In this document: positions 1,447-12,654 of the stretch, piece after piece
Position numbering within the stretch: the first letter of the stretch is position 1
Layout of the letters: every line of letters begins with the position of its first letter
Source: an uncultured Chloroflexota bacterium
GTDB taxonomy: Bacteria; Chloroflexota; Dehalococcoidia; SAR202; UBA11138
Direction: 5' to 3'
Assembly: GCA_913046025.1 (NCBI GenBank)
Contig: CAJWRP010000011.1
Location: 1-13,670 of the forward strand
DNA length: 13,670 nt
Made by a program: the position numbers and the translations under genes
The notes under the pieces: model-generated
Told to the model about the DNA's origin: nothing
The model's database searches: none
What the model saw: the letters and a program-made list of their open reading frames with translations, nothing else

Positions 1447-3747
1447 ATGGACGTTTACTCCTTTTTAAATGAACTACAAAAAATGCCCTGGTACGAGGGG
1501 CAGATAGTTCACCACGAAAGCATTCCTCCCAGAGTTCCGCTGCCCGGCGAGCTAGACATACCTTTGCCATTCAAACTGATGGATTCTTTGGATAAGATGG
1601 GTGTGTACGGACTCTATCGACACCAGGCAGCTGCTATCAATGCCCTCCGCCGTGGTGAAAACGTCATCGTGGCTACTCCCGCTGCAAGCGGCAAGAGCCT
1701 TTGCTACCACCTGCCTGTGCTGGAGGCTCTACTGGCTGACCGCTCCGCCAGGGCGATGTACATCTTCCCGACCAAAGCGTTGGCCCAGGATCAGCTCAAA
1801 AACATGGACAAGCTGGTGCCAGAGGGCAGTCGCCTGCGACGGGGCATCTTCGATGGTGACATACCCAGTTCTGACCGGGCGGATATTCGGCGCAACGCCA
1901 GACTGCTGATAACCAACCCGGACATGCTGCACCTGGGTATTCTGCCCAATCATCGCTCCTGGTACCAGACGCTTCGCAACCTACGCTACGTTGTAATCGA
2001 CGAAGCCCACATCTACAGAGGAGTCTTTGGCTCCCACGTAGCTAATGTCCTGCGCCGTCTTCGTCGCCTGTGCCGCAGATTCGGCAGCAATCCTCAGTTC
2101 ATCCTCTGTTCCGCCACCATCTCCAACCCTGGCGAGCACGCTCAGCGTATTACTGGTCTGCCATTTACCGTAGTGGAAGACGATGGCTCTCCCTACGGTG
2201 GTAAGGACTTTCTCTTTTGGAATCCTCCCATGGTGGATATGGCGAAAGGCACGCGTCGTAGTACGAATACCGAATCATCGCAACTATTTGCGGAGCTAAT
2301 TCGCCGCATGGTGCGGACATTGGCCTTTGTTCGCAGTCGTCGTACGGCAGAGATTTTGTATGTATATGTGCGGGACCAGCTACGGCTATCCAACCCTGCG
2401 CTGGCCAAGCGCATCATGCCGTATAGGGCCAGTTACCTGCCAGAGGACCGTCGCGCCATAGAACGGGACCTGTTCGAGGGCAAGTTGCTTGGTCTGACCA
2501 CTACCAATGCCATGGAACTGGGCATCGATATTGGCGACCTGGACGCCACGCTTATGACGGGTTACCCGGGCACCATAGCCAGCACTTGGCAGCAAGCCAG
2601 CCGCAGTGGACGCCGAGGTGAGCGGTCTCTCAGCGTGCTCATCGCCCAGGACAATCCGCTTGACCAGTACCTGATGCGCCACCCCGATGCCTTCTTCGAA
2701 AAAGCACACGAGAGCGCACGGATTTCGCCGTCCAACCCCTATGTCTTGAAACCGCACCTGCTATGCGCGGCCTACGAAGCGCCTCTGATTATGGAAGACA
2801 CAGATCTGTTTGGGCCTGACCTGCTGTGGTACGCCGACGAACTCGTTGAGGACGGGTTCCTGCACGTGCAGGGCAAGCGCTGGCACCTCACCGCCGACCT
2901 TCAGTACCCAGCCCAGGACGTTAATATTCGCTCCACGTCTGCCAACACCTACACGCTGGTTGAAAAAGATAGTGGCGTGATTTTGGAGACCGTTGATGAA
3001 ATGTCCGCGTTCATGCAGTTACACCCCGGCGGCGTTTACCTGCACCAGGGGGAGCAATACTTAATAACAGACTTGGACCTGGAGTCGGCCACCGCCTACG
3101 CAGCGCTGACTGATGTGCCGTATTACACTGAGGTCCGCGATTACACTGAGACTCGGGTATTGAAGGTCTACAAGCAGAAAAATGCCCTCCGTACTACCGT
3201 CTACCTCGGGGACGTTAATGTCTCTACCACCGTTGTCGGGTTTCGGCGAAAGGCCAACGTCAGCGAAGAGGTATTGAGCGAGGAGCATGTCGATCTGCCG
3301 CCGCAGAGCTACGATACCATAGCTATTTGGTTTGACGTTCCAGGCGATACCCTCGACTACATCCATCGCAACAGGTTGGATCTGATGGGCGGTCTGCACG
3401 CTGTGGAGCACGCGGCCATCGGTGTTCTGCCGTTGTTCGCCATGTGTGATCGCAATGACATCGGCGGCATATCCACTCCACTGCATCAAGACACCGGCAG
3501 GCCCCAGGTCTTCATTCATGATGGCCATCCTGGCGGAGTTGGTATCACCGAGCACGGTTACGAGATAATCGAGGAGCTCTGGCAGGCAACGCTGGACGTA
3601 ATCTCCGAATGCCCTTGTGAGGCGGGCTGCCCTAGCTGCATCCAGTCGCCCAAGTGCGGCAACAACAACGAGCATCTGGACAAACAGGTGGCCCAAATGA
3701 TCCTTCGCGGCATCCTGGGAGACAAAGGGAAGTTGGATGAGGGATGA
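1447..3747 (+). CDS. mrfA: MrfA/Hrq1-type DEAH helicase with C-terminal DUF1998 zinc module
   Basis: A superfamily 2 ATP-dependent DNA helicase of 766 residues, close to B. subtilis MrfA (YprA) in length. MrfA works with the exonuclease MrfB in repair of mitomycin-type adducts outside the UvrABC pathway, and eukaryotic Hrq1 is related. Visible motifs: R-H-Q-A-A-A (Q-motif region, near residue 60); Walker A A-T-P-A-A-S-G-K-S at 76-84; F-P-T-K-A-L-A-Q-D-Q (motif Ia); DEAH box at 185-188; S-A-T at 222-224; and motif VI Q-A-S-R-S-G-R-R-G at 383-391. The C-terminal part has a conserved H-A-V-E-H-A segment, D-G-H-P-G-G-V-G, and a cysteine cluster C722, C724, C728, C731, C737 expected to bind Zn. 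Being full length with all motifs, it is probably active. No mrfB is visible nearby. The gene symbol rests on family architecture; a generic DUF1998 helicase is the alternative. Confidence 0.9.
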   Translation: MDVYSFLNELQKMPWYEGQIVHHESIPPRVPLPGELDIPLPFKLMDSLDKMGVYGLYRHQAAAINALRRGENVIVATPAASGKSLCYHLPVLEALLADRSARAMYIFPTKALAQDQLKNMDKLVPEGSRLRRGIFDGDIPSSDRADIRRNARLLITNPDMLHLGILPNHRSWYQTLRNLRYVVIDEAHIYRGVFGSHVANVLRRLRRLCRRFGSNPQFILCSATISNPGEHAQRITGLPFTVVEDDGSPYGGKDFLFWNPPMVDMAKGTRRSTNTESSQLFAELIRRMVRTLAFVRSRRTAEILYVYVRDQLRLSNPALAKRIMPYRASYLPEDRRAIERDLFEGKLLGLTTTNAMELGIDIGDLDATLMTGYPGTIASTWQQASRSGRRGERSLSVLIAQDNPLDQYLMRHPDAFFEKAHESARISPSNPYVLKPHLLCAAYEAPLIMEDTDLFGPDLLWYADELVEDGFLHVQGKRWHLTADLQYPAQDVNIRSTSANTYTLVEKDSGVILETVDEMSAFMQLHPGGVYLHQGEQYLITDLDLESATAYAALTDVPYYTEVRDYTETRVLKVYKQKNALRTTVYLGDVNVSTTVVGFRRKANVSEEVLSEEHVDLPPQSYDTIAIWFDVPGDTLDYIHRNRLDLMGGLHAVEHAAIGVLPLFAMCDRNDIGGISTPLHQDTGRPQVFIHDGHPGGVGITEHGYEIIEELWQATLDVISECPCEAGCPSCIQSPKCGNNNEHLDKQVAQMILRGILGDKGKLDEG

Positions 3748-6020: not shown

Positions 6021-7307
6021 ATGGCAAGACGGTTGTTAGGGCATAACGTAAATCGAAGAGGACGCACCAACGGCGACGAGTCAATCGAAATTCCTGTGGC
6101 GAAGGACCTGGAAAAAGACCCCGCCTCAATGCGTCGAGAAGACGAAATCACCTTTTACAATCGCGAATATCCCCTTGAGAGCTTTGCCATTGCGGAGAGT
6201 GCGTCAGCGGAGTGGGCAGGAACCGTACGCGATGAGTTTTCGCCCGAGACGACCAAGCTTTACGAGAAATTCCAGAAAGAGATGGAACCTGCCATAGACT
6301 GGGTGCGCCACTCAGGTGACCTGGAGCCTACAGGGGAGCCCACGGGAGAAGACGTGACCGATTCCCTCCGCCAGAAGGCCTACGAGTTGGGCTATGGCGA
6401 GGTTGGCTTCACTCGATTTGATCGGCGCTACCTCTATCAGGTCCGGCGCAAGGATGTGCGCGCTGACCTCCCTCATGCGATATGTCTTGCGTTGGAGCAG
6501 GACTATGTAGGAACGCAAACCTTGCCAAGCCTCGAAGCAGAAGAGGCCCAGGGCGAAGCATACAAGCGCCAGGCCGAACTGGCAGAAAAACTGGTAGCCC
6601 ACATAAATTTCCTTGGTTACAGCGCCCAGGTTTCCGGCCCCACATGGCATTTCGGTCCCATGATTCCCATGTTTGTCGAGTCTGGCCTAGGGCAACTGGG
6701 TGTTAACGGACAGCTCCTTTCGCCTCACTTTGGGTCCCGCGCGCGATTGCAGATAATTCTCACCAATGCCAAGGTCCGACACGACAAGCCTGTGGACTAC
6801 GGCATTCACAAGTTCTGCGAGGTTTGCCAGGTCTGTTTCATGCGCTGTCCCGGCCGAGCCATTCAAGGTCAGCGTCTCTGGTTCCGCGGAGTAGAAAAGG
6901 CCAAGCTTATATACAAGCGGTGCCGGCCAGTCATGGCGCGCTACTCTGGCTGCGGTGTCTGCATGAAGGTCTGTCCGATACAAAAGTACGGTCTTAAGCC
7001 AACCATGGAGCACTACATCGAGACCGGGGAAATTCTAGGCAAAGGCACTTCAAATCTTGAGGCCTACGAACTTCCGGGCAAGGGTTATTTCCGTCCGGGC
7101 AAGCTTCCTGTGTTTGGAGCCGAATTCTTTCAGATGCCAGTCGGCAGGACAGAAGATCATATCGTAGAAGAGTACAAGGAAGGTCTCGCGGAGGCTTCTA
7201 CTAAAGAGGAGCGCGAAGAGGTCTGGCAGAAATACCGGGAGAGCATGGAGCGGGCTCTGGAGCAGGGTACAACCATTGTGGACATGGGAATGGACCTAGC
7301 CAACTAG
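6021..7307 (+). CDS. Reductive-dehalogenase-like corrinoid/double [4Fe-4S] protein, no Tat signal
   Basis: A 428-residue protein related to RdhA and to epoxyqueuosine reductase QueG. Two ferredoxin-type motifs are intact: C266-x2-C269-x2-C272-x3-C276-P and C301-x9-C311-x2-C314-x3-C318-P; the spacing of the second is that of RdhA enzymes. Before them, residues 222-242 (G-L-G-Q-L-G-V-N-G-Q-L-L-S-P-H-F-G-S-R-A-R) match the RdhA block lining the cobalamin/active site. The N-terminal 100 residues are polar, with no hydrophobic stretch after the arginines, so the protein should be cytoplasmic. No rdhB anchor gene is adjacent. The C-terminus (about 370-420) is charged and helical. Such soluble homologues may reductively remove halogen from, or otherwise reduce, an organic substrate; the substrate cannot be read from sequence. 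The ATG at 6021 lies about 12 nt after AGGA. QueG itself is less likely because of the motif 2 spacing and the extra N-terminal region. Confidence 0.8.
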   Translation: MARRLLGHNVNRRGRTNGDESIEIPVAKDLEKDPASMRREDEITFYNREYPLESFAIAESASAEWAGTVRDEFSPETTKLYEKFQKEMEPAIDWVRHSGDLEPTGEPTGEDVTDSLRQKAYELGYGEVGFTRFDRRYLYQVRRKDVRADLPHAICLALEQDYVGTQTLPSLEAEEAQGEAYKRQAELAEKLVAHINFLGYSAQVSGPTWHFGPMIPMFVESGLGQLGVNGQLLSPHFGSRARLQIILTNAKVRHDKPVDYGIHKFCEVCQVCFMRCPGRAIQGQRLWFRGVEKAKLIYKRCRPVMARYSGCGVCMKVCPIQKYGLKPTMEHYIETGEILGKGTSNLEAYELPGKGYFRPGKLPVFGAEFFQMPVGRTEDHIVEEYKEGLAEASTKEEREEVWQKYRESMERALEQGTTIVDMGMDLAN

Positions 7308-9315: not shown

Positions 9316-9344
9316 TTGACACACCCAATAACCTATGTTAGATT
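9316..9344 (+). promoter_or_regulatory. Strong sigma-70 promoter of the selenoprotein gene
   Basis: TTGACA (9316-9321, perfect) is followed by a 17-nt spacer and TAGATT (9339-9344), with TG at 9336-9337 giving an extended -10. Predicted initiation is near 9351, leaving a leader of about 93 nt before the ATG at 9444. This is the best promoter match in the window. Confidence 0.65.
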
Positions 9345-9410: not shown

Positions 9411-9443
9411 TTGTGGCAGCACCTAAATTTAAGGAGGATGTGC

Positions 9444-9728
9444 ATGGCCGGAGAAGCAAAAGTCGACGCCGAAATCATCTACTGTGTACCTTGACAGCAT
9501 CTTGGTACTGCGGCCTGGACGGCCAATGAGTTGTTTGCCCAAGGTGGCAAAGATGTTTCGATTAAGATTACGCCGGGCGTAGCTGGTGTATTCCAAGTGT
9601 TCCTTGATGGCGAAAAGGTCTTCGATAGGAAAGAGGAAGGTAATATCTTCCCGGACCTGACAAGAGTCAAGCAGATGAGGGCGATCCTGCAGGAGAAGAT
9701 TAACTCTGCTCCAGTAGCAGCTGACTAG
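9444..9728 (+). CDS. SelW/Rdx-family selenoprotein (CxxU, Sec encoded by TGA 9492-9494)
   Basis: Reading through one in-frame TGA gives a complete 94-residue thioredoxin-like Rdx (SelW/SelT/SelH) protein. I-I-Y-C14-V-P-U17 is the family's CxxC/CxxU redox motif, with selenocysteine where homologues carry Cys or Sec. It is followed by A-A-W-T-A-N-E-L-F, T-P-G-V-A-G-V-F-Q-V-F-L-D-G (43-56), E-K-V-F-D-R-K-E-E-G (57-66) and F-P-D, the rest of the Rdx fold. The start at ATG 9444 follows a perfect AAGGAGG (9431-9437) by 6 nt. The frame is otherwise open to TAG 9726-9728, and a strong promoter and terminator frame it as a single-gene unit. A bacterial SECIS-like hairpin directly follows the TGA. The protein is probably cytosolic and acts in thiol/selenol redox chemistry; the partner is unknown. 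A Cys-to-stop mutation is the alternative, but the TGA falls exactly on the Sec position. Confidence 0.88.
9502..9526 (+). promoter_or_regulatory. Candidate bacterial SECIS element
   Basis: Directly after the TGA, 9502-9505 (UUGG) pairs with 9523-9526 (CCAA) and 9508-9510 (CUG) with 9520-9522 (CGG, one G-U), with a 2-nt bulge and a 9-nt apical loop CGGCCUGGA beginning 17 nt past the UGA. Bacterial SECIS elements lie in the coding region within about 16-37 nt of the UGA and keep a G among the first two loop bases, as here. A rival stem (GGCC 9512-9515 with 9521-9524) is also possible. Confidence 0.55.
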
Positions 9729-9751: not shown

Positions 9752-9787
9752 AAAAAGCCCCGAACTTAATCAGTTCGGGGCTTTTTT
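9752..9787 (+). terminator. Rho-independent terminator of the selenoprotein gene
   Basis: A perfect 14-bp stem (AAAAAGCCCCGAAC at 9752-9765 with its complement at 9773-9786), a 7-nt loop and a run of six T. It lies 24 nt after the TAG stop, so the selenoprotein gene is a monocistronic unit insulated from the SirB1 gene. The A-run on the other side would let it act in both directions. Confidence 0.95.
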
Positions 9788-10789: not shown

Positions 10790-11716
10790 ATGACGAAATC
10801 GATCCCCGAAGACTACCGCTGCAAAGTCGAGAAACCGGACGATTTTGACCAGTACTGGAATGAAGTTCTGTCGCAAGTGGCTCAGATTCCTTTGAACGCG
10901 GTTACGGTAGCCGACCCTCTCAGAACCTCCGATGATATAGAGACATTCCAGGTGTTCTATGACAGCCTGGATGGCGTAAGGGTTGCCGCTTGGTACTGCC
11001 TACCAAAGAACCGGACGGGCAGATTACCGGCGGTGCTTTTTTTGCCTGGATACCAGAGCGATCCGCCGATTCCTAAGGACTGGGCCAGACGAGGATACGC
11101 AGCCATTTCAGCAGCTCCCAGGGGTAAGCTGCGAAGCAACAGCCAGTTTAATCCTGGTTACCCTAATCTGCTTACCCACAATATTATAGATCGTAACTCA
11201 TACACCTATAGGGGCTTCTATGTGGATGCGTGGAGGGCAGTAGATTACCTTCTGAGTCGAGATGAAGTGGACGGCAATAGGATTGGTGTAGCAGGCAGCA
11301 GCCAGGGTGGCGGCTTAACCATAACTACAACTGCCATGCGACAGGAGGTTGCCGTTGCCTCTGCGGGCGCGCCCTACCTCTGCGGCTACACGGACGCCAT
11401 AGAATTGGAGGATAGCTACCCCTACGAGGAGATTAACGACTACCTGCGTATGCACCCTGAGCAGAGGGCCAAGGTGGAGAGCACCCTGGCTTACTTCGAC
11501 GGCATAAGCTTCGCTGACAAGATAAGCTGTCCTATCATCGTGAACATTGGCCTGCAGGATAATGTCGTCCCACCTGAGACTGGTTACGCTCTCTACAACA
11601 CCATCGGCAGCGACGACAAGAAACTTTACGCGTACGAGGGCCATGGTCACGAGGCTGGGCGCTACAAGCACACCGCCGTAATTACAGACTTTTTCGCTGA
11701 ACATCTTAAGCCGTAA
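10790..11716 (+). CDS. AXE1/CE7-family alpha/beta hydrolase (acetyl esterase-like), active type
   Basis: A 308-residue protein with the N-terminal F-D-Q-Y-W helix typical of AXE1 (acetyl xylan esterase/cephalosporin-C deacetylase) enzymes. Seen in order: L-F-L-P-G-Y (84-88) near the oxyanion loop; A-P-R-G-K (109-113), in place of the family's R-G-Q-G; the nucleophile elbow G-S-S171-Q-G-G; D257 in L-Q-D-N-V-V-P-P; and H287 in G-H-G-H-E. The catalytic triad S171-D257-H287 is therefore complete. There is no signal peptide, so it should act in the cytosol on small acetylated or ester substrates rather than on polymeric xylan. The ATG at 10790 overlaps a CATATG. The next gene, 29 nt downstream, is a diverged tandem copy. 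The exact substrate is unknown. Confidence 0.87.
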   Translation: MTKSIPEDYRCKVEKPDDFDQYWNEVLSQVAQIPLNAVTVADPLRTSDDIETFQVFYDSLDGVRVAAWYCLPKNRTGRLPAVLFLPGYQSDPPIPKDWARRGYAAISAAPRGKLRSNSQFNPGYPNLLTHNIIDRNSYTYRGFYVDAWRAVDYLLSRDEVDGNRIGVAGSSQGGGLTITTTAMRQEVAVASAGAPYLCGYTDAIELEDSYPYEEINDYLRMHPEQRAKVESTLAYFDGISFADKISCPIIVNIGLQDNVVPPETGYALYNTIGSDDKKLYAYEGHGHEAGRYKHTAVITDFFAEHLKP

Positions 11717-11745
11717 ACAGCTGTAACAGATAAGAGGATACGCAT

Positions 11746-12654
11746 ATGTGGGATGGCCACCCCGCCGATTTTGACGCCTATTGGCAGAGCACTCTGGATG
11801 AGCTGGAACTAATTCCTGCCGCGCCGGAAGTGGATCCGCTCCCTATCCGCAGCACGGCGTTTGCAACTACATATTCAGTCAGGCTGACCAGCGTCGGCCC
11901 GTACAGGCTGTACGGCTACCTGAGCATACCCACTGGCGACGGGCCGTTCCCCGCCATTTACTACGCTCCCAAGTACCAGAGCGTATTGGAACTGATTCCT
12001 CAGGGCTCCTCTAATAAGCTTCGTAGCCGGTTCATCACCTTTTCGCTGGCGGGCAGAGGACAGCGAAATTCAGACCAGCCCTTCTCGGCCATGTTTCCAG
12101 GCATGCTCACCGAAGGCATTAATGATTCCTCGAGTTACATTTTGCGAGGGTTTTTAGCCGACGCTGTACGAGGCCAGGAGTACCTGCAGCTGCGCCCCGA
12201 GTTGGACCGCAGCCGTGTGGTCTCCATAGGCAACGACGTTGCGCTGATGGCCGCTGGACTTCATTGGGGAGTGAGCCACGTCGTGTGCACACCGGCGCTC
12301 TTCTTCGACAGCATGAACCTGGCAACGAAAACTGGCGCGTATCCGCTAGAGGAGATCAATGACTACATGGGGTCGTTTCCAGATAGGCGCAGCGCTGTAG
12401 TAGAGTCGCTGGCCTATATGGACTTGCGAGGTTTTGCGCCCAAGGTAGGGGCAACGACCTTGCTTATGGCGGATGCCACCGGTGGACTCATGGACGGCAG
12501 TGCGCTTAAGTCAGTTTCCGAAGCCATTCAGGGGAGCGTGACTGTGCACGACTCAGAGAGTTCCAGCTACAGAGACGGGATGTTCGTTGAGGACTGGATA
12601 GCCAGGGAATTCGGATACGAGAAGGCCATCGTGCCTAAACATTGGCAAGACTAA
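11746..12654 (+). CDS. AXE1-family paralog lacking the catalytic triad (predicted pseudoenzyme)
   Basis: A 302-residue intact frame that aligns end to end with the preceding hydrolase: F-D-A-Y-W near the start, A-G-R-G-Q (102-106), S-S-Y-I-L-R-G-F-L-A-D-A (129-140) and Y-P-L-E-E-I-N-D-Y (199-207) correspond to conserved blocks there. At the nucleophile elbow, however, it reads G-N-D164-V-A instead of G-S-S-Q-G. The acid position falls on G246, and the histidine position on S273 within D-S-E-S-S-S-Y. All three catalytic residues are gone, while the length, frame and Shine-Dalgarno (AGAGGA about 8 nt before ATG 11746) are kept. This suggests selection for a non-hydrolytic role, for example as a partner of the upstream enzyme. 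Neofunctionalisation with a different active site cannot be excluded. Confidence 0.82.
   Translation: MWDGHPADFDAYWQSTLDELELIPAAPEVDPLPIRSTAFATTYSVRLTSVGPYRLYGYLSIPTGDGPFPAIYYAPKYQSVLELIPQGSSNKLRSRFITFSLAGRGQRNSDQPFSAMFPGMLTEGINDSSSYILRGFLADAVRGQEYLQLRPELDRSRVVSIGNDVALMAAGLHWGVSHVVCTPALFFDSMNLATKTGAYPLEEINDYMGSFPDRRSAVVESLAYMDLRGFAPKVGATTLLMADATGGLMDGSALKSVSEAIQGSVTVHDSESSSYRDGMFVEDWIAREFGYEKAIVPKHWQD

Follow-up and report, generated by a model that had tools for sequence, protein, structure and literature searches.

A short reading frame in the DNA of an uncultured Chloroflexota bacterium contains one in-frame TGA, which raises the question of whether this codon is a stop or is decoded as selenocysteine (Sec). 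The frame lies in a 13,670-nucleotide stretch of contig CAJWRP010000011.1, which is referred to in full as the window. Based on the evidence described below, we conclude that the gene very probably encodes a 94-residue SelW-like (Rdx) selenoprotein, in which UGA codon 17 is decoded as Sec via SelB and a hairpin. The original prediction of a 94-codon frame with a single in-frame TGA was confirmed by translation: an ATG at 9444 and 15 further codons are followed by TGA, 77 codons and TAG (9726-9728), and the read-through product of 94 residues starts with MAGEAKVDAEIIYCVPU, in which Sec is residue 17 of the motif YCVPU. Standard gene calling yields, as had been foreseen, only a 65-residue fragment with a TTG start at 9531, and this fragment contains neither the first strand nor the redox motif.

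The signals that flank the frame are of unequal strength (Table 1). The Shine-Dalgarno sequence just 5' of the ATG is present, as had been described, and AGGAGG is also found 5' of the ATG in all seven family members compared. Five ATGs in the window have AGGAG at Shine-Dalgarno distance, among which that of the Rdx gene alone opens a frame that crosses a TGA. The strong terminator proposed for the 3' side was likewise found, and similar inverted repeats were recognized by eye 3' of the Rdx gene at two related loci, L025 and L109. The claim of a strong promoter was not upheld, because the promoter-like sequence, although it matches the consensus at 10 of 12 positions, is located about 100 nt upstream of the Rdx start and is one of three such sites in a consensus scan that finds 1.4 in shuffled sequences. 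No Rfam family was matched anywhere in the window at curated thresholds.

Table 1. Features of the putative selenoprotein locus (positions in the window)
Feature	Position	Strand	Basis
Possible sigma-70-like promoter, TTGACA-17-TAGATT	9316..9344	+	Consensus scan alone; weak evidence
Shine-Dalgarno sequence, AAGGAGG	9431..9437	+	Sequence; AGGAGG 5' of ATG in 7/7 family members
Gene for SelW-like (Rdx) selenoprotein; 94 codons, of which codon 17 specifies Sec	9444..9728	+	Read-through translation, profile matches, conservation
Sec codon TGA (UGA)	9492..9494	+	Second redox position of CxxU
Bacterial-SECIS-like apical hairpin, GGCC-TGGAC-GGCC	9512..9524	+	Comparison of 61 distinct Sec sequences
Intrinsic terminator hairpin	9752..9786	+	-23.4 kcal/mol; 0/200 shuffles equally stable

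The read-through product belongs to the Rdx family. Its score against the Pfam model Rdx (PF10262) is 54.8 bits (cut-off, 22.6), compared with 30.4 bits for the 65-residue fragment, and its score against TIGR02174 (CXXU_selWTH) is 37.0 bits, just over the cut-off of 34.2 (both cut-offs are curated); with NF041051 (SelTWH_Campy) the protein stays under the cut-off (38 versus 88). A sequence search of the PDB returned seven distinct chains, of which six are bacterial SelW-related proteins and the seventh, a weak match (E 0.039), is C17orf37. The structure was predicted with Cys in place of Sec17 from a 21-row alignment (mean pLDDT 88.7, pTM 0.79). In the model, residues 7-13 form a strand, Cys14 comes next and residue 17 starts a helix, which is the predicted arrangement of a thioredoxin-like fold with CxxC or CxxU after its first strand. 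Foldseek gave 22 matches with E no higher than 0.001, all of them to SelW-related chains, and their TM scores normalized by query length are 0.65-0.76. The predicted fold is the same as that of the bacterial SelW-related structures 2oka, 3dex, 2ojl, 2obk, 2p0g and 2fa8, although the chains of 2oka and 3dex differ from the window protein in having Cys at the Sec position. The predicted fold is also that of mouse SelW (2npb), whose sequence is 13% identical to the window protein.

A protein search listed 32 relatives, of which six have 92-95 residues and 26 have 66-73 residues. The latter are the size of post-TGA fragments, and the 14 of these 26 whose sequences were read all start after the redox motif; one of the relatives listed (P0007) already bears the source name 'predicted Rdx family selenoprotein'. 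Position 17 of the six long relatives is W in P0002, P0003 and P0004, Cys in P0005 and P0027 and Leu in P0008. The two Cys proteins are Rdx homologues that share the motif site with the window protein, with CxxC rather than CxxU (P0005, 63% identity over 98% of the query; P0027, 46% identity over 93% of the query). The TGA thus aligns at residue 17 with Cys or Sec codons of homologues, as had been anticipated, for it corresponds to Cys in P0005, P0027 and the Cys loci and to TGA in the loci of other genomes described below. P0008, a close relative with YCVPL, is represented by a single member sequence, from a contig of 585 bases, and its Leu at the Sec position may reflect an error or a changed variant. 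Among viral contigs and phage records, no relative was found at the sensitivity of the tools used for them.

The W at position 17 of three database proteins is what a table-4 gene caller would write, and it could be taken to mean that UGA is read as tryptophan (YCVPW) through an altered code or suppression, a reading that we consider extremely unlikely. The ten other genes of the window contain 38 TGG and no internal TGA codons, and the helicase gene at 1447-3747 ends in TGA, which argues that TGA does not generally specify Trp in this stretch. P0002 is the window's own protein, the DNA of which reads TGA, so its W is a translation artefact. At all loci where the DNA was read, which do not include those of P0003 and P0004, codon 17 is either TGA or a Cys codon. 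Decoding of UGA as Cys was sought in PMC5424206, in the main text of which 'UGA' occurs 0 times, and this paper therefore lends the idea no support.

The TGA is conserved in related genomes. The closest locus (L001) is on contig JACZVF010000011.1 of the metagenome-assembled genome (MAG) of Chloroflexi bacterium B17T3L14 (G001), which shares synteny with a large part of the window (DNA identity of about 76-83% in long blocks), and its Rdx ortholog retains TGA at the same codon. Over the 77 codons that follow the TGA, the two genes differ by 18 synonymous changes and one nonsynonymous change (dS 0.46, dN 0.006); in the 16 codons before it, two codons are changed synonymously and one nonsynonymously. 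Other TGAs are common to read-through frames of the window and L001, but those frames are 38-82% identical, compared with 96% for the Rdx frame, and are presumed to be shadow frames of real genes. In the family of the L001 genome, six of eight genomes have the Rdx gene, with TGA in each. The window gene has diverged further from the five other family members: 18-24 of the 77 post-TGA codons are changed synonymously and 29-42 nonsynonymously, the differences being most frequent at third positions (43-46, versus 20-24 and 14-22 at the other two); the synonymous distance is saturated in the sole pair of such distance for which it was computed (window versus L109). The Shine-Dalgarno sequence, the ATG and 16 in-frame codons before the TGA are kept in all seven family members. 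This last result bears on the proposal that only the 65-residue product started at TTG 9531 is functional, the upstream part being unused. That product is the output of standard gene calling, but it would have neither the first strand nor the redox motif, and the upstream part has stayed in frame, with its ribosome-binding site, in 7/7 members, and the probability that we give to this proposal is exceedingly small.

At the level of the class, which is probably Dehalococcoidia, Rdx relatives with E no higher than 0.001 were found in 110 of 294 sampled genomes, and TGA was found at the exact CxxU column in 61 of the 294, all 61 of which were read. In G192 and G252 the TAA or TAG listed inside the match is the gene's own end, the gene of G273 is cut by the contig, and a second copy in G249, which is degraded and contains both TGA and TAA, was left out of the 61. 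The ten matches without TGA that were read all have Cys (eight distinct Cys loci and second copies at L026 and L039). The weaker class matches are members of other Rdx subgroups, and they need not be orthologs. A stop within a short frame is usually a nonsense lesion, and the second copy in G249 does carry further lesions, but a pseudogene or sequencing error at the window locus is already refuted by the conservation found and is left with a vanishing probability: the same TGA occurs at the same codon in L001, five further family genomes and 61 class genomes, the change after it relative to L001 is almost solely synonymous, and the other frame-destroying lesions that had been named as a result against Sec insertion are found in none of the six family copies.

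Sec and Cys appear to have been exchanged repeatedly at this position. A tree of 82 rows (67 with Sec, 12 with Cys and three with neither) implies four Sec/Cys changes, with a bootstrap range of 4-5, of which the starred branches force three; the alignment is short, at 86 columns, and 28 of the 79 inner branches are open. P0005, with Cys, is among the nearest relatives of the window protein, alongside L109, with Sec, and P0008. In four genomes (G231, G191, G272 and G108; loci L026, L039, L084 and L085), the Rdx gene is present as neighboring Sec and Cys copies, with 40-82 nt between their matched parts. In addition, locus L102 (G249:C108:19451-20278) combines an intact Cys copy with a degraded one after it, in which TGA is still present, and is possibly a snapshot of selenoprotein loss.

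The original prediction also included a SECIS-like hairpin at 9502-9526. Comparison backs its inner part, the hairpin listed in Table 1, but the stretch as such folds no better than shuffled sequences when it is considered alone, and folding of the single sequence after the window TGA gave no signal relative to shuffles. The loop of the inner hairpin begins 21 nt after the TGA and has G at its second position, in agreement with the small apical loop with a guanosine given for bacterial SECIS elements in PMC1088965. This 4-bp stem is possible in all seven family members, while the most stable fold of a 54-nt stretch is another structure in both the window and L025. Because the stem is largely dictated by the codons for Ala-Trp-Met/Thr-Ala/Val, random synonymous codons were used as the control. 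Among 61 distinct Sec sequences the mean stem is 5.10 bp, compared with 3.65 bp when codons are replaced by random synonymous ones (0 of 2000 randomizations as high), and a stem of at least 4 bp is found in 60 of the 61 (expected, 36.2). Among eight distinct Cys sequences it is 2.62 bp versus 2.23 bp, and 475 of 2000 randomizations are as high. Taken alone, the window hairpin does not reach significance in this test (P about 0.42). Covariation is seen at the fourth pair of the main register (n=52), which is C-G in 36 sequences, G-C in eight, T-A in four, A-T in one, T-G in one and unpaired in two; nine sequences show a second register, in which the loop has 6 nt. The registers were picked after inspection of the sequences, the sequences are related to each other and the Cys set numbers only eight. 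When whole-region folding energy was compared, free of any register, with that of synonymous shuffles, Sec and Cys loci were not distinguished (mean z of -0.65 for 65 Sec rows and -0.77 for nine Cys rows, two of which are the same gene; medians of -0.71 and -0.20, respectively); the positioned stem alone distinguished them.

Most of the machinery for Sec insertion was identified in the closest MAG, where searches identified selA, selC and selD but no selB. The tRNA-Sec of this MAG has a score of 56 bits, less than the roughly 69-82 bits among the class matches listed, and ARAGORN calls the site tRNA-SeC with anticodon TCA; a second match to the tRNA-Sec model, just over the cut-off at 47.3 bits, is a tRNA-Ser. 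SelA scores 449.7 bits and SelD 382.6 bits, and the SelD gene (L021:1477-2538) has one in-frame TGA (SCAGU), so that SelD is probably itself a selenoprotein. In this MAG, for which completeness is not given, all matches to the SelB model TIGR00475 are under the cut-off, the best being a 417-residue frame, and the SelB of a relative used as query revealed no further candidate. By our reading, which included inspection of two of the sequences, these sub-cut-off matches are EF-Tu, IF2, LepA and EF-G-like genes. A lineage with tRNA-Sec, SelA, a TGA-containing SelD and a conserved Sec gene might be thought to decode Sec without a canonical SelB, but this is very improbable; SelB is over the cut-off in all seven other genomes of the family (the copy in G296 has two internal stops), which makes an assembly gap by far the likelier explanation.

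Class-wide, the machinery was surveyed with E limits of 1e-60 for SelA, 1e-75 for SelB and 1e-9 for tRNA-Sec. Among the 61 TGA genomes, selA was found in 52, selB in 50 and tRNA-Sec in 57; the corresponding numbers are 33, 34 and 34 for the 49 genomes whose Rdx genes include no intact TGA copy, and 112, 111 and 118 for the 184 genomes without Rdx. All three went undetected in 0/61, 13/49 and 52/184 genomes, respectively (Fisher test of 0/61 versus 65/233, P 4e-8, uncorrected for relatedness or assembly completeness), and four TGA genomes show just one of the three. The other counts and tests are likewise uncorrected for relatedness. Sec machinery is thus common in the class even without Rdx (selA in 112/184), which counts against the interpretation. 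Among the control genomes, SelA was found in E. coli alone and SelB in E. coli and M. jannaschii. The tRNA-Sec model matched these two and also Thermus composti, which has no SelA or SelB match, so the class count of tRNA-Sec may include false positives.

Returning to decoding as Sec, the genuine insertion postulated in the original prediction is supported by the Cys homologues, the conserved TGA, the nearly synonymous change relative to L001 and the hairpin in the set of Sec genes, and further by the tRNA-Sec, SelA and TGA-containing SelD of the closest MAG. We infer that the UGA at codon 17 would be read as Sec by tRNA-Sec(UCA), which SelB would deliver by recognizing the small hairpin at 9512-9524, whose loop begins 21 nt 3' of the UGA. 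The resulting protein would contain a thioredoxin-like domain in which the redox pair Cys14-x-x-Sec17 is flanked by the first strand and helix, and is most likely a thiol/selenol oxidoreductase.

Two further observations concern other parts of the window. A 428-residue iron-sulfur protein encoded at 6021-7307 is reductive-dehalogenase-like (TIGR02486, 105.7 bits, under the cut-off of 160.35), and two adjacent acetyl-xylan-esterase-like (AXE1) genes at 10790-12654 (213.4 and 71.8 bits) are perhaps a tandem duplication.

SelW-like proteins are well represented in previous surveys. SelW-like CxxU proteins are the most abundant family of the Sargasso Sea set, with 48 genes, and an interaction of the protein with glutathione is reported (PMC1088965); they are among the most abundant and widespread families of the GOS data, with 427 proteins and 56 Cys homologues (PMC2398784); and a 2006 survey includes them among bacterial selenoproteins and gives three selenoproteins of three families for Chloroflexi (PMC1794560). 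The window gene has in common with the SelW-like proteins of the two marine-metagenome studies the family, the CxxU motif, the existence of Cys homologues and a bacterial SECIS element, putative in the window gene, just 3' of the UGA, while it differs from them in being placed in a Chloroflexota lineage. Searches of an open-licence library with a few phrasings listed no paper on this gene in this lineage. The family, motif and mechanism are already established, and the general picture of selenoprotein biology is unchanged. What the finding corrects is an error of gene callers, which is evident in the 26 of 32 listed relatives that are of fragment length. With repeated switches in one small protein and paired Sec and Cys copies, the class offers natural material for the study of Sec/Cys exchange.
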